39,040 nt of DNA, from contig JABXGV010000140.1 of the NCBI GenBank assembly GCA_016550485.1, forward strand, positions 1 to 39,040, in the 5' to 3' direction. The position numbers were made by a program, and so were the translations under genes. The notes beneath the pieces were generated by a model. It saw nothing but the letters and a program-made list of their open reading frames with translations. It was not told the DNA's origin and made no database searches. Below, piece by piece: positions 1-38,160 of this stretch (position 1 is the stretch's first letter; each line of letters begins with the position of its first letter). This DNA comes from an archaeon (GTDB taxonomy: Archaea; Asgardarchaeota; Hermodarchaeia; Hermodarchaeales; Hermodarchaeaceae).

Positions 1-2340
<2,340 letters not shown>

Positions 2341-19109: not shown

Positions 19110-21416
19110 CTAGGTCGAGTCTGTATCTTGTACGTAAGGCGAGTCAAGGGCTTTTCTTATTGCGTTGGCCTTGGTTTTCCCGATTCCCTGAATGTCCTCC
19201 AATTCCTCAAGCGATGCATGGACAACTCCGCTGACATTTCCAAACTTGGCGAGTAGACGCTTTGCGAGGGTTACATTGACCCCAGGAAGGCTAGCAACAA
19301 TGTACTCTTGGAGCGCGGAAGTGCTCATTGAAGGCTTTCCCCCTCGGATGGCAAATGTATGTTTCCTTTCTTTTTGCTCACGACGAGCTATTGCAAAAAG
19401 GAGATTCGCTGCTTCAGAAGCATTAGCGACATTGACGATAGGCACGCGGAAATCAATCATCACACTAGCGATAGCGCCGCGAACAGATTGCGGACTAACT
19501 CCGCCTGATCCATAGAGACTTTCACCAGTGATGACGAGAAGAGGTATCGTGAATGTGTCACGCAAAGCGCTTAACTGGGTGAATAGCCGTCGATCAACAA
19601 TTGATTGAGCAAAGTCGTTTGCTGTTTTCGCTTCAACACCCACTCTGTCTGAGAGAATGTAATCTCCTACGTCTAGTGTTTCTGCCTGCAATTCGGCACC
19701 CAGTGACTTCAATGATTTTGCAATCCCCGAACGGAGTTCTCGACTGTCTATGACGATTTTTACAACCGCTGACTGAGAGCTTACCTCTGGTTCTTCGGGG
19801 GTTGCCTGTGTCATGAAATCTTTGAGCGTAGCTTGTTTCCTATCTCGCGCAACATCACGGGAAATCTTTCTCATTTCCCGTAGCAATTCCTTCATTTGAG
19901 CTTCTTTTCGGATTGCGGACCAATAGTATCCTTGATCCCGAGTCCCCTTAGCTACTAATACAACAACTTGTCCTGGTTGAGTACGACCAGTACGCCCCCG
20001 TCTCTGGATTAACCGTACAGCACTTGCCACAGCTTCATAGAAGATTACGAGGTTACATTCTTTGATATCCAAGCCCTCTTCCCCTACGCTGGTGGCCACT
20101 AGAACATTGTACCCTCCTTTGCGAAACGCCTGAAGAATCTCAGCTTGTTCTTTTTGGGATAAACCTGGATCATCAGTCTTGCTCGCCTGCCCGACAAACC
20201 GGACAGGCAGAACACCAGATAATTCCTTGAGTGTTGTTTCGATGAGCTGAGCGGTTCCACGAAAACGAGAGAAAATAATAACCCGAGAATTCGGGTCGTC
20301 CTTGAACTGACGATGAACTAGCCGTGTTAAAACGGGAAGCTTAGGGTGTTCCACTTTCCCTGCTCGGAGTTTTTCGGTGAGTAGCCTAGCTTCCTGAAAA
20401 TCTGTATCCTGAACTAGCTCACGAATTGCCTTGGAGGCACCACTTCTTTTCGCTTTACTGAAGACATCCGACAAATACGCTGCCAGTGCTGAAATGCCTT
20501 GAGTCTCTAACAGCTCCACACTATGAAATAACCGTATCAACGCTGCGCAATGAGATACGAGCTGGTACAAGTGACTAGGGGGTTGGGCTTCAGCTGCAAT
20601 TCGCCGCTGAAGGTCTCTTTGAAGCCCGAGAATATCACGAACCCCAACCCGTGTAAGATCACGTGTTTCTATGAATCCTGCCTCCTTTATTGGTTGCAAT
20701 CGTGACCTCATAGCTTGTCTCAGTCGACGCCCAACTTCCCTAAATTTTTCTGGGAGCTGCACTTCAAGCCATTCAAACTTAACATATGGAACATATGGCG
20801 CCACATCAGGGCTTTCTCGCGTACGAAGCTCAATATTCTCTATCCGTAGATTACTGACCACCTCACGGATCTTCTCTACCTCAGATCCGGGTGACGCCGT
20901 CAATGCTAAGAGAAGGGGTGAAATTGCCTGCTGGTAATACTGCTGTGCGATGAAGACGTAGGCATAATCACCAACAGCCCGATGCGCCTCGTCCACCACC
21001 AGTAAAGACACGTTCTTCAGCGTATAACGTCCTGCAAGGATGTCGTTCTGCAAAACTTGAGGAGTCATGAACGCTATCCGTACTTTGTCCCATACCCTCT
21101 CACGACGTGCAGGTGGAACTTCTCCTGTCACTAGCTGTAAATCCTCGTCGGATAAGTTCATTGCACTTTGAAATGTTTCTTGATGTTGAAGCGTTAAGGG
21201 CTTGGTTGGAGCCAGAAACACGCACTTGGAATTAGGGAATTTTTTCAGTCGATACGCAGCAGCCAATACAGCAATCAGCGTTTTCCCTAGACCAGTTGGT
21301 AAGATACAGAGAGTGTTCCATTTGATCGCCGTGCCAATTATGGTCTCTTGGTATAACCGTTTCTCGATAGCGCGCGGTTTAATCAGTGGGTGAGTGACGA
21401 ATTCTTTAGCTTTCAT
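19110..21416 (-). CDS. hef: Hef-type helicase/nuclease (SF2 helicase plus XPF-like nuclease plus HhH)
   Basis: LPTGLGKTLIA, VVDEAHRAVGDYAY, QRRGRTGR; C-terminal VIDSREL..DVGDYILSDRVGVEAKTANDF..RRLFTQL; tandem HhH at the C-terminus. Confidence 0.95.
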   Translation of the reverse strand: MKAKEFVTHPLIKPRAIEKRLYQETIIGTAIKWNTLCILPTGLGKTLIAVLAAAYRLKKFPNSKCVFLAPTKPLTLQHQETFQSAMNLSDEDLQLVTGEVPPARRERVWDKVRIAFMTPQVLQNDILAGRYTLKNVSLLVVDEAHRAVGDYAYVFIAQQYYQQAISPLLLALTASPGSEVEKIREVVSNLRIENIELRTRESPDVAPYVPYVKFEWLEVQLPEKFREVGRRLRQAMRSRLQPIKEAGFIETRDLTRVGVRDILGLQRDLQRRIAAEAQPPSHLYQLVSHCAALIRLFHSVELLETQGISALAAYLSDVFSKAKRSGASKAIRELVQDTDFQEARLLTEKLRAGKVEHPKLPVLTRLVHRQFKDDPNSRVIIFSRFRGTAQLIETTLKELSGVLPVRFVGQASKTDDPGLSQKEQAEILQAFRKGGYNVLVATSVGEEGLDIKECNLVIFYEAVASAVRLIQRRGRTGRTQPGQVVVLVAKGTRDQGYYWSAIRKEAQMKELLREMRKISRDVARDRKQATLKDFMTQATPEEPEVSSQSAVVKIVIDSRELRSGIAKSLKSLGAELQAETLDVGDYILSDRVGVEAKTANDFAQSIVDRRLFTQLSALRDTFTIPLLVITGESLYGSGGVSPQSVRGAIASVMIDFRVPIVNVANASEAANLLFAIARREQKERKHTFAIRGGKPSMSTSALQEYIVASLPGVNVTLAKRLLAKFGNVSGVVHASLEELEDIQGIGKTKANAIRKALDSPYVQDTDST

Positions 21417-26721: not shown

Positions 26722-27912
26722 GTGAACAAAACAATGCCCAAAGTCGTATCAGTCAGCGGCAATCACGCAGCCGCTTGGGCTGCCCGAACCGCCGAACCAG
26801 CAGTTATCGCCGCCTATCCAATTACCCCCCAGACAACGATCGTCGAGAAGATTGCGGACTTTGTCGAGGGGGGTGAGCTAAGCTCACAATACGTACGAGT
26901 TGAAAGCGAGCACAGCGCCATGGCAGCTTGCATTGGCGCCTCAGCGCTGGGTTTGCGTACCTTTACCGCAACCTCTTCCCACGGCTTGGCTCTAATGCAC
27001 GAGATGCTGCACTGGGCGGGACGCGCGCGCCTCCCTATTGTCATGCCAGTCGTCAACAGAGCTATGGGACCTCCATGGAATATCTGGACTGATCATACGG
27101 ATTCGATGTCACAACGCGATACGGGCTGGATTCAGTTTTATGCATCGAATAACCAGGAAGTCTATGATACTGTGCTCATGCTGTTCCGTCTGAGTGAGGA
27201 CCCCAAGGTCCTATTACCGAGTATGGTATGTCTTGATGCGTTCATCCTGAGCCACACCTTTACACCGACCACAGTCTATGAGCACAAGGAAATCCGCGAT
27301 TTCCTCCCTGATTACAAGGCAGGGCACTGGAAGCTAGACCCCAAGGATCCAATGGCGACCGGAAACATTGCTGGACCTGAATATTATTACGAGCTGAGCT
27401 ACGCCATTCACGAGGGATTCGAAGCAGCACGGAAACTCATACCTCGTGTCGTGCGGGAGTTCGAAAAACACTTTGGACGCAGTCACGGTGGCTTCATCGA
27501 CACCTCCCGCTGCGAGGATGCAGAAGTGATCCTGTGGGCCATGGGCACGATGGGCGAGGAAGCCACGTTAGCCGTTGAGAATCTGCGCCAACAGGGCATC
27601 GCCGCGGGCTCAGCACGCCTCCGCGTGTTCCGACCCTTCCCCGTTGAGCAAATCCAAAAACTCGCATCAAAAGCCAAAGCCTTTGTCGTTGTCGACCGGA
27701 GCCTATCCTATGGACACACTGGTGGCCAAGCAACCGAAATCCGCTCAGCGCTCTACCGTGGCAACAATCGCATCCCCGTCCAAGGCGTCGTCGCTGGATT
27801 AGGTGGGAGAGACGTAACCCAAACCGATTTAGAGAAACTAATTCAGGTAGGCTTTGACGTTGCGGACAAAGGCGAAGCAGGGCCTGAAATATTCTATGGG
27901 TTGAAAAGGTGA
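26722..27912 (+). CDS. porA: Pyruvate:ferredoxin oxidoreductase alpha subunit
   Basis: GNHAAAWAARTAEPAVIAAYPITPQTTIVEKIADFV..VRVESEHSAMAACIGASALGLRTFTATSSHGLALMHEMLHWA. Start may be 26734 (MPKVVS). Confidence 0.96.
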   Translation: MNKTMPKVVSVSGNHAAAWAARTAEPAVIAAYPITPQTTIVEKIADFVEGGELSSQYVRVESEHSAMAACIGASALGLRTFTATSSHGLALMHEMLHWAGRARLPIVMPVVNRAMGPPWNIWTDHTDSMSQRDTGWIQFYASNNQEVYDTVLMLFRLSEDPKVLLPSMVCLDAFILSHTFTPTTVYEHKEIRDFLPDYKAGHWKLDPKDPMATGNIAGPEYYYELSYAIHEGFEAARKLIPRVVREFEKHFGRSHGGFIDTSRCEDAEVILWAMGTMGEEATLAVENLRQQGIAAGSARLRVFRPFPVEQIQKLASKAKAFVVVDRSLSYGHTGGQATEIRSALYRGNNRIPVQGVVAGLGGRDVTQTDLEKLIQVGFDVADKGEAGPEIFYGLKR

Positions 27913-28823
27913 AACAAATGGTAAAAGTCAAAGAGTTACCCAGAGAAGAGTACATCGAGCGGGGTCACGCAGCCTGCGGAGGCTGTGGTGCCACAATCGC
28001 AATACGCCACGCCCTCAAAGCCCTCGGCGGCAACACTATCCTCACCGTACCGGCCTGTTGTATGAGCGTAATCCAAGGCCTGTACCCCAAGAATGGGCTC
28101 AGCATCCCAGTCCTCAACACCGCCTTCATGACCTCCGGTGCAGCCGCGTCAGGGATCGCCGCAGGCCTCAAACACCTCGGAAAAGACAAAGAAATCAACC
28201 TAATGGCCTGGGCGGGAGACGGCGGCACCTACGACATCGGCATCCAAGCCCTCAGCGGCGCCGCAGAACGCCAAACCAACTTCATCTACACCTGCTACAA
28301 CAATGCAGCCTACGGCAACACTGGCATGCAGAGATCTGGTGCGACGCCTTATGGGTCGTATTCGACGACAACTCCTACTGGGAAGCGGCAGCATCGTAAG
28401 CCGATGGCTCGTATTATGGCGGAGCATGGTATCCCGTATACTGGTGTGATTTCTGCTGCTTATCCTCGACTGATTTATGATACGTACAAGAAGGCGAAGG
28501 ATATCGTTGGTACCCGCTTCATTGAGATTCATATTCCCTGCCCGACTGGGTGGCGTTATCCGACGTGGGACACGGTTAATATGGGTAAGCTGGCCGTGGA
28601 GAGTGGGGCGTGGATTATGTGGGAGCGGGAGGGTGACGAGTATCGTTTCTTGGGTCGGAGTAAGTTGATTGCGGAGGGGAAAGTGCAGCGGAAGCCGCTG
28701 ATTGATTGGATTAAGCCTCAAGGGCGATTCCGCTTCCTCCTCAAGGACCCGGGCATGATGGCTGAGTATGAGCGCGGTATCGAGCGAGAATGGGAAATAA
28801 TGAAGAGATTAGTAGGATGTTAG
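27909..28823 (+). CDS. porB: Pyruvate:ferredoxin oxidoreductase beta (TPP-binding) subunit
   Basis: GHAACGGCGATIAIRHALKAL, WAGDGGTYDIGIQALSGA, YNNAAYGNTGMQRSGATPYGS. Confidence 0.96.
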   Translation: MKQMVKVKELPREEYIERGHAACGGCGATIAIRHALKALGGNTILTVPACCMSVIQGLYPKNGLSIPVLNTAFMTSGAAASGIAAGLKHLGKDKEINLMAWAGDGGTYDIGIQALSGAAERQTNFIYTCYNNAAYGNTGMQRSGATPYGSYSTTTPTGKRQHRKPMARIMAEHGIPYTGVISAAYPRLIYDTYKKAKDIVGTRFIEIHIPCPTGWRYPTWDTVNMGKLAVESGAWIMWEREGDEYRFLGRSKLIAEGKVQRKPLIDWIKPQGRFRFLLKDPGMMAEYERGIEREWEIMKRLVGC

Positions 28824-30904: not shown

Positions 30905-31954
30905 TTATATAAAGTCCGAAAGGCGCATTTGCAGTTTTGTACCCCTTCCAGGCTTGACAGTTTTTACTCCTAATTTCTCGAGAACCGCATAGAAGGTTGT
31001 TGTTTCCCCGTTGACGAGAAAGACTGCCTCAGGTTTTGCCTCCTCCACATAACGCAGTAGTTGTTGAAAGTCTGCATGGGCTGAGAGGACGAATGCCTTG
31101 TCAACGCTTTTCATTGGGAAGATTTGAGCCCAGCCTGTTGCTTTCGCACGAACAAAGCGATGACCCGCGGGGAAGAAGCGTCTGTTGAACCGTTGGGGTG
31201 AGATGTAAACGTAGTCTCCTTGCCTTATCAACTCCCGGCCTTCGACAGTATTGGCTGCCGTATACTCCAACGGAACACCGTGACGTACATAGACCTCATT
31301 TACCTTAGCTACAGTCGTGTCAACAACCACCGGTACGGTGAGATACATGTTGAGAATACGAAGTAGCTCCTGTGCCTTTCCTTTCGCATAGACTTGGAAG
31401 GCAGGGATTTTCTTCGATTTGAGTGAACAGCTTGTCCACTCAACTATTTCTGCACAAACTGACTCTCTTGGGGGGAATATCGCGTCGGGTCGTCCGTATG
31501 TTGCCTCGATGAGAAGGATGTCGCAAGGGATTGGCTGTGCGCCCTTTGTAATCAGCGTGGAACTGAGGTTCAAATCCCCCGTGTATACCAGCCGACGACC
31601 ATTCCATTCGACTTCGAATTGTGCGGCGCCTAGCATATGCCCTGCCGAATGAACATGGAGATCGACTCCTTCAGATAATCTGATTTTGCCACCCAGCTTG
31701 ACGGGCTGGGATTTCCGTGTTTGCCCCCCTAGAGCTTGATGGATATCGAGTGTGATTTGCGTCGCATACTTCTCGATTGAACTAGCAAATGCTGCAGTGT
31801 GATCAGAATGCGCATGCGAAACACACGCAACACTCTGTTGCGTGCTCACGTGCCTTGGGGGTTTGAGAGGATCAAACAAGATTCGCTGCACCCCAGCAAT
31901 AACGGCTATGTTCTTTGAACCTACAAGCTGGAAATCGGTAGCAAATCTCGACAC
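30905..31954 (-). CDS. Metallo-beta-lactamase/beta-CASP-like exonuclease family protein
   Basis: VSHAHSDHTAAF, HSAGHMLGAAQFEVEWNGRRLVYTGDL, FVLSAHADFQQLLRYVEE. Confidence 0.88.
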   Translation of the reverse strand: MSRFATDFQLVGSKNIAVIAGVQRILFDPLKPPRHVSTQQSVACVSHAHSDHTAAFASSIEKYATQITLDIHQALGGQTRKSQPVKLGGKIRLSEGVDLHVHSAGHMLGAAQFEVEWNGRRLVYTGDLNLSSTLITKGAQPIPCDILLIEATYGRPDAIFPPRESVCAEIVEWTSCSLKSKKIPAFQVYAKGKAQELLRILNMYLTVPVVVDTTVAKVNEVYVRHGVPLEYTAANTVEGRELIRQGDYVYISPQRFNRRFFPAGHRFVRAKATGWAQIFPMKSVDKAFVLSAHADFQQLLRYVEEAKPEAVFLVNGETTTFYAVLEKLGVKTVKPGRGTKLQMRLSDFI

Positions 31955-33835: not shown

Positions 33836-34696
33836 TTGAGGCGAACCTGCTTGAAAGTAGAAGAAATCATGCAAACAGAATTTGTGCACTCGACGGTACC
33901 AGGCACACGGGCGACAGTTCTCCAGCTAATGGCCAAACACGGAACTAATACAATTCCTCTCCTAAAAAAGGGTTCAAAAGAGCTTGCAGGAATGGTTACA
34001 CGAGCAGATCTGATGAGTAAGGCAGAGGAGGAGCAACTAGCTTTGTTGATGAGGAGGGACCCACCAACCGTATCGCCATCAGATGAAGTAGAGGATGCTG
34101 CACGAATTTTCCTTGAACAAGGCCTCCGAAAAATACCAGTGGTTGATGGAAAACGGCGTCTAAAGGGAATGATAACTATTCACCAAATTATTAGGAAAGT
34201 TGTCAGCACCCAATACCCCAATGAGCTGATTTCACCTTTTGTCAAACGCCAAATTGTGTGCATTTGGGAAAACACACCCCTGCGAGCTACATACGCAGTG
34301 ATGAGATTAGCTGGTGCAGACATGCTACCAGTTCTTTCGAAAGAGGGAGATCTTGTCGGTGTGATATCTGTCGGCGACATAATGAATCTAGGCGAAATCG
34401 TAAACGAACGGAGACTCTCATCTATGAGTGCGGCCGGGGAAGGCACAGACTGGTCATGGGACGCGACGGCAGTCCTTCACATCGCTACAAAAGAACTGCA
34501 GTTACCCGATAAGATTGTTTCAGAAGTTATGATACGAGGGCCAATCACAACCTTCGAGAAGGCCACTATCGGAGAAGTCGTTAAGAGCATGCGGAGACAC
34601 AATATTAACCAGATGGTTGTGACGACCGCCAAGGGAGAGGTCTGCGGAATTATCAGAGATGCTGACTTGCTCCGTATATTCCAAAAAGCTGACTAG
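33836..34696 (+). CDS. Multi-CBS-domain protein
   Basis: Four CBS-like repeats: HGTNTIPLLKKGSKELAGMVTRADLM, GLRKIPVVDGKRRLKGMITIHQII, ADMLPVLSKEGDLVGVISVGDIM, INQMVVTTAKGEVCGIIRDADLL. Confidence 0.9.
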   Translation: MRRTCLKVEEIMQTEFVHSTVPGTRATVLQLMAKHGTNTIPLLKKGSKELAGMVTRADLMSKAEEEQLALLMRRDPPTVSPSDEVEDAARIFLEQGLRKIPVVDGKRRLKGMITIHQIIRKVVSTQYPNELISPFVKRQIVCIWENTPLRATYAVMRLAGADMLPVLSKEGDLVGVISVGDIMNLGEIVNERRLSSMSAAGEGTDWSWDATAVLHIATKELQLPDKIVSEVMIRGPITTFEKATIGEVVKSMRRHNINQMVVTTAKGEVCGIIRDADLLRIFQKAD

Positions 34697-37600
34697 GAGA
34701 GTTCGCTCCCCTGTTTTTCGGTGAAATCTCCTAACCTTGTTTGTTGTCGATCGGGTTCTTCGGAGGCGAAGAGCGAATCGATAGCGTCTTGAGCTAGTTC
34801 TAGGCGTTGGCGATAATACTTCGGGAGGTCGTACTCTTCCGCAATCCGGCGTGCTAAGCTGATGTACTTTGTGATTCCGCTCTTTGTGACGGTGAGAACA
34901 AGTTTGCCGCCACACTTGGTACACACACCAACTAAGGGAATGCGGCGAAACTTGGCATTACAACTCGTACACCTGAATTTCTGGGAGGTATATGCACGGA
35001 TATTACCGAAAATATCAGGAAGGAAATGGGACTTCAGCAACCGTGTCACCATATCCCTTACATCAACGGCGGCAATGCGTCTCCCTAAAGCCAACTGCCG
35101 ATCCACTTTCTCCTCCATCGTCTTCAATTTGGTATACAAAGTAACAGGGGGACCATAATTTGCGTCACGCGTAGGGTGAGAATAAAGAAAGCCTCTACAC
35201 TCAGCATCAGACCCCAGACGCTGCTCCACAATATCAAGAACATTCTCAACACCTCGAGGCTCAACAAAGAACTTAGCCCGCTCATAAAACTCCAAGGGAT
35301 AAATACCACCAACATCCATATTATGCGCCTCGTCATCAACCTCGGCAGGCGTAAGAGACACACTGAGCACTAATGGTGTATCCATCGTACCACCTCGCCG
35401 CGCAGGTAAAAACTCCCGGCTGAAATTAATCAACGCATCCAATGCCAGTAGTATCGAATCCTCGTCACCATCAGCGTTGCGGCGTTTTGCCGCGTGCCAG
35501 AAAGGGTGAGCGTAGCATACACGCAGGGGTGTGAAGCCAATGACACGGGCGATGATGCCCGCGGATGTATGGGGGGCGAGCCCTATTACTAGGTGACCTA
35601 GGATGTCTTCTGGCGATTTGAGCTTGTAGTAGGCATCTAGTTCGTACAAGTCTGTTAGCAGCTCGTCTATGAAGTGTGAGATACGGTAGAGATAGTTAGC
35701 GCAGTTTCTAGGGACGACGATGTCTTGTGGTTTAAGTTCGAGGATTTGGTCTTCTCGAGTTAGAGGCTTGCCCTGAATGTCTGCGTTGTAACCGAGTTCC
35801 AAGAGCTTATCGACAGTTACGTCGATTTCTTTGGGGGTGAAGTGCGTTAAGGGGGCGTCGGTCATATCAAAACGGATTGTGCCATCCTTGTAGACGTATA
35901 GGTCATGTCGGGCGCGTAGTACGGCTTTTTCGGGGATTTCAGAGATTTTGTGTTTGCTCATCAGTCCTTTAACGCCCTTTACTCTAGACGGGAGCCTAGC
36001 GCCGACAAGGCGGCGGACTCGCTGGAGCTGCTTTCTCAAGTTTAGTGTGGTTGGTCCGTAGGAGGTGGTCGGTTCTTGGCATTTGCTGCAAGTTGGTTCG
36101 GTTCTGAATTCCTGACATGTTGGGCACCAGCTTACACTAACGGTTTCGACCCCACAGGACATACAGGTCAAGAACATGTCAATTTCGCCACATTTGGGGC
36201 ATTTACGAAGTGTGGTTTCAACGTCTACTTTGCCTTTCTTTTCCGCCTTGATGATGTCTCGTGTGGGGCCACCAGCCATTCCCACGGGAAAGAGCCCGTG
36301 AACGGGTACTTTCATTTCTCGACGCTTTGCTTTCTCTGGACGCCCTATTCGCGCGCCAACAAAGAAGGTTCCTTTTTGTTTAATCGGGATGTACCAGTGT
36401 TTCTGGATGATGGACAAAGCATCACTTTTTTCATCTTCCACATTGACTATCGGGCACTGTTTCTCTCCAACGAACATTGAGTGTAGTATTGGGGCGGCTT
36501 CGTGGAATACCGCAGCCGCTTCTTCTTTTTCGAAGGGAATACAAAGCTCATCAAGAATTGCTTCAATTTCGGGGGTTAATTCGCCGATTAATCTGTTTAC
36601 ATGTGATTCATCGTGTTCTACGGTGAGACTCTGTACCCATCGCTGGAAGAAGATAAGTTGCTCATGAGTGATATCTTCCCAGAAATAGGTATAGCGAGGA
36701 TGAAGAGGAATGGAAAGGATAGATGAAATGGCTAGGGCTTGCCAGGGGTCAGGATACTGGTATAATGGATCTTGGAAAAGCTTAGTTAGTCGTTTAGGGT
36801 CAACCTTTTTTTCCAGCTCTTCCTTTTGGGATGGAGAAATCTCTAATAGCGCCCGTTTTACTTCTTGAATCCACCATTCTGGGCAATACCCAGCTGGCAC
36901 TAGAAGATGGTTATTCTCTCTGAACTCTCCGAACGCGATAAGGAGGTCGCCGAGAAATAGTATTCGTGCTAGCTTGCTTCTGAGATTTTTAGCCTCCGCA
37001 ACGCTATCCACTCTTTTAATGCTTCCATCATATAATTTCACAATCGGACCATGGATTGAATCAACAGGCATGGCAACCCCAGCTTTACCAGGCCTTTCGA
37101 CTATCAGTTGGGTTCCGCAGGCTACAAAGTTATCTAGAAGAACCATTGTTGCTGGATGAACGCCCAGAGCTGCGAGTCCTGTGTTTCTCGCCCTACCATA
37201 ACGAATCCTAAAACCGCCCTTCCTAGAAGGGTATGCAAGAACCGGGCGTCCCGCGATGATATCCTCGAGGAATTTATCATTTGGCTTGACCGTCTGTGAG
37301 GACTCTGTCTTTACGGATTTCTGAGGTGTGCGGCGCTCAATCCAATCCCAACCGGGTAATTTCAACCGTTTCACTTCTTTCGCCACTTTGTGGGCTTTGC
37401 CAAGGATACTGTCATTTAGAACTAGTATTGCACCTGTTCGGATGCGATTTGTCTCTACACCTGGTAAATCGCGATAGCCAGATACCTCCGCTTCAAGAGT
37501 GGGTTCTCCGGTTACTTCTACTGGAAGATTTTGGGCTGCAAGTCTGACTTCCTCGGAGGTAGAGGGGTATTGGAGGTGGCTTACTCTCTTGTAAAGCGCT

Positions 37601-38160
37601 ACCTCCTCAACGTATCGTTCTATGATATCCCGTGTGGGCTTGTATCGGTCTAGTCCAAGAACTCGTCTAACATCATCAGCAACGACAACTATTAGAGCAG
37701 CCTCAGTGCCTCCTGCTGCACGGATTGGTCCTGCAAAGTAAACAGCAAGATATTCGGAGCCATCTGAATTCTTCTTTATTTTTACTTGAGCTATTCCTTC
37801 GATGGGTCCTGCCGTGATTCCCTCTGTTAGGATTGCTAATGCTGTTCGGATGGCTTGGTCCAGAGCAACCTCGACATCCTGTACTTCATCAATAGCTTTG
37901 TGTACGATTTCACGAGCGACTTGGAAAGCGATTTCTTGCGGCGTCATTTCTTCAGCTAGCTCGCGTATCCGATTAGCCACCCCTGGAGGTCCAATTAACC
38001 CCTCAACGCGACCCGCAACATCATCTGCTGGACGTACTTCTACCTCCCTACATGGATCCAGTCCCTTTCTTCGCGCAGCTTGTGCTACTGCTTCAAGACG
38101 TCGTAGTTCATCTCGGAGATATGTCGAGTATTCACTATCAAAGTCCATTTCTAGTATCAC
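34693..38160 (-). CDS. polC: DNA polymerase II (PolD) large subunit DP2
   Basis: 1155 aa; YFAGPIRAAGGTEAALIVVVADDVRRVLGL, RYGRARNTGLAALGVHPATM, HPFWHAAKRRNADGDEDSILL, C-terminal zinc motif CTSCNAKFRRIPLVGVCTKCGGKL. Confidence 0.98.
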   Translation of the reverse strand: MILEMDFDSEYSTYLRDELRRLEAVAQAARRKGLDPCREVEVRPADDVAGRVEGLIGPPGVANRIRELAEEMTPQEIAFQVAREIVHKAIDEVQDVEVALDQAIRTALAILTEGITAGPIEGIAQVKIKKNSDGSEYLAVYFAGPIRAAGGTEAALIVVVADDVRRVLGLDRYKPTRDIIERYVEEVALYKRVSHLQYPSTSEEVRLAAQNLPVEVTGEPTLEAEVSGYRDLPGVETNRIRTGAILVLNDSILGKAHKVAKEVKRLKLPGWDWIERRTPQKSVKTESSQTVKPNDKFLEDIIAGRPVLAYPSRKGGFRIRYGRARNTGLAALGVHPATMVLLDNFVACGTQLIVERPGKAGVAMPVDSIHGPIVKLYDGSIKRVDSVAEAKNLRSKLARILFLGDLLIAFGEFRENNHLLVPAGYCPEWWIQEVKRALLEISPSQKEELEKKVDPKRLTKLFQDPLYQYPDPWQALAISSILSIPLHPRYTYFWEDITHEQLIFFQRWVQSLTVEHDESHVNRLIGELTPEIEAILDELCIPFEKEEAAAVFHEAAPILHSMFVGEKQCPIVNVEDEKSDALSIIQKHWYIPIKQKGTFFVGARIGRPEKAKRREMKVPVHGLFPVGMAGGPTRDIIKAEKKGKVDVETTLRKCPKCGEIDMFLTCMSCGVETVSVSWCPTCQEFRTEPTCSKCQEPTTSYGPTTLNLRKQLQRVRRLVGARLPSRVKGVKGLMSKHKISEIPEKAVLRARHDLYVYKDGTIRFDMTDAPLTHFTPKEIDVTVDKLLELGYNADIQGKPLTREDQILELKPQDIVVPRNCANYLYRISHFIDELLTDLYELDAYYKLKSPEDILGHLVIGLAPHTSAGIIARVIGFTPLRVCYAHPFWHAAKRRNADGDEDSILLALDALINFSREFLPARRGGTMDTPLVLSVSLTPAEVDDEAHNMDVGGIYPLEFYERAKFFVEPRGVENVLDIVEQRLGSDAECRGFLYSHPTRDANYGPPVTLYTKLKTMEEKVDRQLALGRRIAAVDVRDMVTRLLKSHFLPDIFGNIRAYTSQKFRCTSCNAKFRRIPLVGVCTKCGGKLVLTVTKSGITKYISLARRIAEEYDLPKYYRQRLELAQDAIDSLFASEEPDRQQTRLGDFTEKQGSELS

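Follow-up and report, generated by a model that had tools for sequence, protein, structure and literature searches.

The window, by which we mean the whole stretch of 39,040 nucleotides analysed, is contig C67 of a MAG that is 80% complete. Its closest named relative among the GTDB contigs is the Asgard archaeon Candidatus Hermodarchaeota archaeon YT1_014, whose polC is 86% identical. The polC gene of the window (34696–38160, minus strand) encodes the large subunit DP2 of DNA polymerase D, a protein of 1155 amino acids without an intein that is recognised by NCBIfam TIGR00354 (polC, E = 0) and by the Pfam N-terminal, central and catalytic domains of DP2. On the plus strand, at 27909–28820, lies a porB-like gene for the beta subunit of a 2-oxoacid:ferredoxin oxidoreductase (Pfam TPP_enzyme_C). 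Both genes harbour a point at which the choice of silent nucleotides switches between C/A and G/T.

A raw skew scan over all bases was noisy through amino-acid effects, and a silent-site test was used in its place. The end of a partial archaeal 23S rRNA gene (1–2340, minus strand) may account for part of the skew change that the raw scan gave near 2514. In the silent-site test each codon is scored by its keto (G/T) residual, taken relative to how often codons of that amino acid or codon box end in G/T on average, and the scores were scanned for change points. The top positive switches in the window are those in porB at 28322 (z 9.3–10.8) and in polC at 35443–35476 (z 5.7–7.8), with all other positive switches at z of about 4 or less.

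A preliminary description had reported a codon switch at the catalytic NADGDED motif of polC, and the codons it quoted are present (gcg gca aaa cgc cgc aac / gct gat ggt gac gag gat tcg). The motif was right and the position, given as about 35490, was some 14 bases off: the maximum-likelihood change point separates the Asn codon AAC from the Ala codon GCT (AAKRRN/ADGDED, 35476/35475), 0 codons from the intein boundary of relatives and with a 2-logL interval of −1 to +4 codons. In 2000 within-gene permutations the gene-wide scan maximum was never reached. On the coding strand, G+T at third positions is 0.23–0.35 in the 40-codon bins upstream of AAKRRN and 0.72–0.82 in the first three such bins past it. 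Amino-acid content alone, which the preliminary description had named among the refuting explanations, is ruled out since the switch survives the per-amino-acid control. The switch is thereby confirmed as real, and it is stronger than had been claimed. On the N-extein side the coding strand is C/A-ending and the plus strand G/T-rich over 35476–36200, with a silent residual of about +0.2 per 100 bp that fades past 36200. On the C-extein side the coding strand is G/T-ending and the plus strand C/A-rich over 35001–35475 (silent residual −0.20 to −0.43), and the tract ends near 35001, its outer edge being placed near 35002–35014 by the scan (z −4.4 to −5.6).

The position of this switch is the DP2 intein site, an association that is measured and firm. 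That the motif is an intein insertion region, as the preliminary description had suggested, was borne out by the sister genus: every one of its four genomes with polC in full length (G003, G004, G006 and G007) carries an intein of 533–547 amino acids directly after HAAKRRN, the host sequence resuming at CDGDED. In a further genome, G005, a contig end cuts the gene at the intein start. Pfam domains for intein splicing and for LAGLIDADG were found in the insert of G006, which also matches PI-PkoII, an endonuclease of solved structure. Once the insert is taken out, the four genes have their change point 0–3 codons from the junction at a gene-wide z of 4.4–10.7, and in G006 the G/T-ending codons make up 6% of the last 100 before the intein versus 76% of the first 100 after it. 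Across the family, the change point lies 0–5 codons from the DP2 site in 7 of 7 polC genes tested, any intein having been removed first.

The window polC has the same residue position in common with the known DP2 intein site KRRN/CDGDED and its LAGLIDADG endonuclease, but differs in having no intein, since NADGDED is read uninterrupted, and in having Ala at +1. Ala at this position cannot serve as the splicing nucleophile, and the window allele therefore carries no intein and could not do so without a change there. The switch is kept in both inteinless polC copies of G001, a genome of the same genus. These two copies (C36 and C93) were assembled into one MAG with 6% contamination and are 85–86% identical to the window polC; at intein position +1 one has Ala and the other Cys.

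Intein insertion points were located in eight genomes of the family, and 80 informative codons were tested on each side. The asymmetry is positive at 16 of the 17 distinct occupied sites when averaged over genomes (sign test, p = 1.4e-4), and z is at least 3 at 11 of the 17 sites, compared with 0.76% of the positions that make up about 620 kb of background. A strand-asymmetric scar at most intein sites is the rule for this family. The strongest are found at polC, at MCM sites b and c (z 8.7 and 6.5–7.3, respectively), in ribonucleotide reductase (6.6) and at polB-b (5.9); MCM site a reaches 5.3 in G001 and nrdD 4.0. Scars at the inteins of hel308, rpoA2 and atpA are weak or absent, and the only negative site is polB-a, whose C-extein flank reaches the second intein site of polB. 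The MCM gene of G003 has an intein at site b only, and sites a and c, empty here, are occupied in relatives; its C/A side stops at the empty site a (GDPGTAK/S) and its G/T side is strongest past the empty site c (EQH/T).

The preliminary description had argued that the switches in porB and polC, lying on opposite strands and running in the same plus-strand direction, must be a property of the DNA strand. This argument is empty because a change from C/A to G/T is left unaltered by taking the reverse complement, but the conclusion is right on other grounds. Pooled over the stronger sites, fourfold positions consist of C.59, A.26, T.11 and G.04 on the left and of G.52, T.31, A.10 and C.07 on the right, while the background is G.14, C.20, A.33 and T.34. 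Each flank thus comes close to the reverse complement of the other, and both are unlike the background. The strand leaving the site 5′→3′ is G/T-enriched on both sides. The profile runs from −0.38/+0.33 adjoining the site to about zero by 180–240 codons, i.e. about 600 bp and at most 600–700 bp. Crossing of gene boundaries was examined at two sites near gene ends, the tract in polC being wholly intragenic. At secY the asymmetry does not end with the stop codon but crosses the spacer and enters the gene beyond, and at etfA it extends past the gene end into a convergent gene on the opposite strand. The reverse-complement flanks and the crossing of gene boundaries together indicate that the effect acts on DNA, and at the etfA and secY sites the strand asymmetry is independent of gene boundaries and orientation. 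The possibility that such flips occur at random places in most genes, which had been named as a way to refute the original observation, was not what was found: in about 1.3 Mb of G003, z exceeds 6 at 0.015% of positions and falls below −6 at none. In about 1.2 Mb of mostly haloarchaeal contigs no flip beyond z ±6 was found.

Of the two inflections, the one in polC coincides with an intein site, and for the one in porB no such site was detected. The porB switch lies at the conserved motif NTGMQR/SGATP, at which no intein is known, in an interval (28317–28335) that corresponds to −6 to 0 codons from R/S (z 9.7, 0 of 2000 permutations). The plus strand is C/A-rich on its left (28001–28316, silent residual −0.26 to −0.47) and G/T-rich on its right (28336–28717, +0.23 to +0.46), with a sharp end near 28718 (outer edge z −4.2), and third positions go from about 85–90% C/A to 85–95% G/T across it. 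The switch at NTGxQR/SGATP recurs in the window genome, G001 and G004 and in a paralogue in G003. A search of 228 genomes of the phylum with two degenerate junction patterns, which other insertion points or junctions could escape, found no porB intein at NTGxQR/S, and an intein reading for the porB switch is not proven.

Three further switches are of the same kind. In etfA, which is fused to ferredoxin, the conserved switch at DPDAPIF..ADFSIVGD is found in G003, G006, G007, the window genome and G001 (L238:2634; L297, L299, L301, L304). At the C-terminus of secY (GILLAVGIMRQY) it is found in G003, G007, G005 and G004 (L191:10026; L309, L311, L312) and reaches the downstream gene. A sharp change from C/A to G/T also occurs inside the polC intein of G006 and G004, close to the second of the endonuclease motifs. 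In L033 it lies at YAWKM/GTNAY, between the two LAGLIDADG-like motifs, and C/A bias covers about 1 kb on its left; L035 has it too. The switches in porB, etfA and secY are as sharp and site-specific as those at intein sites, and no intein was detected at them. They and the intein-internal switch may mark ghost homing sites, sequences cut by free-standing endonucleases or other hot spots of breakage or strand invasion, and they leave room for a broader phenomenon. In G001 the gene next to etfA, probably etfB, has another switch, at AGKQAIDGD.

The best reading of these observations, inferred and as yet unproven as a mechanism, is that repeated break repair has left a strand-asymmetric mutational scar in polC, with the target of a homing endonuclease, the DP2 intein insertion point, at its centre; we give it a probability of roughly 0.6. 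The LAGLIDADG endonuclease of the intein would repeatedly cut inteinless alleles, each broken 3′ end would invade an intact copy, and synthesis would proceed outward past the break. If G and T were gained for A and C on the outward-synthesised strand, or on the displaced strand of like polarity, many such events would add up to an origin-like pattern, with C/A to one side of the break and G/T to the other. Resection of 5′ ends would expose the opposite strands, so damage to the resected tails would give a bias of the opposite sign. For the displaced strand, deamination (C→T, A→G) would give the right sign. Pure deamination, which yields transitions only, is insufficient, since it does not account for the increase in fourfold GC from 0.34 to about 0.6 or for the changed balance of pyrimidines and purines. 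A part was therefore probably played by polymerase error or by biased mismatch repair. Break-induced replication in yeast is mutagenic through single-stranded intermediates (PMC6765108). The preliminary description had named past intein activity and an asymmetry of break-repair mutation as separate possibilities. The asymmetry is there at the level of DNA and at the intein site, the repair process behind it being what we infer, and the two suggestions appear, with partial support, to be two halves of one explanation.

For the inteinless window allele, the sequence would suggest that the tract is a relic, or that the site was cut but no intein was inserted. Changes polarised among the three inteinless polC copies comprise, on the left side (the window copy and G001a), 19 from amino to keto versus 4 from keto to amino, and on the right side 13 from keto to amino versus 6 in the other direction, majority polarisation being itself biased towards erosion. 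These changes lean towards erosion of the scar and are only suggestive.

The alternative of most weight is that intein sites are a subset of a wider class of site-specific points of breakage or strand invasion, including targets of other nucleases, lost inteins and recombination at conserved motifs, and that the scar arises from recombination in general. The recurrence of the porB, etfA and secY switches at the same conserved motif across species speaks for this, as does the switch inside the polC intein of G006 and G004. Most conserved motifs are blank, however, with 13 positive peaks above z 4.6 in 1.35 Mb, and in several genes the fit to intein points is exact within a few codons; we regard this alternative as tentative and rather unlikely. 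Small local replication origins or points of replication restart would give the observed sign on both sides, which equals the leading-strand G/T bias around a replication origin. They are nevertheless very improbable, as the asymmetry is gone within some 600–700 bp and not many kilobases, and several such points occur per genome, within genes.

Selection on codons, or a co-translational effect that switches codon choice at the motif, is just as hard to uphold. Gene-level codon bias does exist, and some genes of G003 are mostly C/A-ending (L231:3391–5467, a gene of 692 codons that is C/A-ending over most of its length and lies beside an opposite-strand hydrogenase-like gene). But codon selection gives no reason for reverse-complement compositions on the left and right, the asymmetry passes through stop codons, a spacer and an opposite-strand gene, and the change points are located at intein boundaries. 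Less probable still is a mosaic gene, into which donor DNA of other codon usage was imported by co-conversion or transfer. Homing is generally accompanied by co-conversion of the flanks (PMC10643990), and the preliminary description had considered past endonuclease activity with co-conversion. The intein site in that proposal stands and the imported donor DNA is not supported, since two mirror-image donors would be needed at every site and neither flank is like the background.

The scar is limited in its distribution. In a mostly haloarchaeal set there is no polC scar, the mean z being 0.13 in 24 genes with an intein and 0.02 in 49 without, and at the polC inteins of other Asgard archaea z is near zero with the exception of G045 at 3.2. 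A general archaeal effect at polC inteins is thereby rejected for haloarchaea and most other Asgard families, and cutting alone is insufficient to produce the scar. Checks of UDG and DinB in the eight family genomes found no clade-specific repair feature: loss of UDG in the clade is rejected as a cause, UDG being present in 8 of 8 genomes, and DinB, present in 6 of 8, does not discriminate. The polC contig carries a gene for a Hef helicase-nuclease (19113–21416) and one resembling a ligase-associated exonuclease, below the curated cut-off (30908–31954). In the Asgard family f11, porB of G020 and G034 (L065, L066) is G/T-ending from about 25–40 codons before NTGTQRS onward, and the phenomenon may extend beyond the family.

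Among open-access papers we found no report of strand-asymmetric scars flanking such sites, but parts of the pattern are familiar. Co-conversion tracts of homing are likewise centred on the cut site and decay outward over hundreds of bp; they transfer donor alleles, whereas here the two sides bear a mirror-image bias of composition. Replication origins have a GC/keto skew of like polarity, with G/T enriched on the strand that departs 5′→3′ from the site; here the skew is limited to about 600 bp on each side and occurs at several intragenic points. Mutagenesis by break-induced replication and kataegis in yeast shares the passage through single-stranded break-repair intermediates (PMC6765108), but the yeast tracts are much longer and experimental, while those described here extend about 0.6 kb to each side, are fixed and occur in several species.

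Homing of inteins is usually inferred from the presence and absence of the element. If breaks leave compositional scars, the history of cutting would be readable from one genome, even after loss of the element, and scars of this kind could map past sites of DNA cutting. It is an evenly balanced proposition that endonuclease targets of the present and the past are marked in some archaea by a lasting scar, strand-asymmetric and about 0.6 kb long on each side, which the repair of site-specific breaks has left behind. Scars would then map ghost homing sites, including those in porB, etfA and secY where no mobile element is known, and would show how far repair synthesis runs in uncultured archaea and with which polarity. 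Where inteins are lacking, the scars would suggest that core metabolic genes have lost elements or are cut by site-specific nucleases yet to be recognised. If true, an Asgard lineage close to the archaeal-eukaryotic root would repair its breaks in a strongly mutagenic and strand-biased way, with a tract length that could be read from sequence alone.
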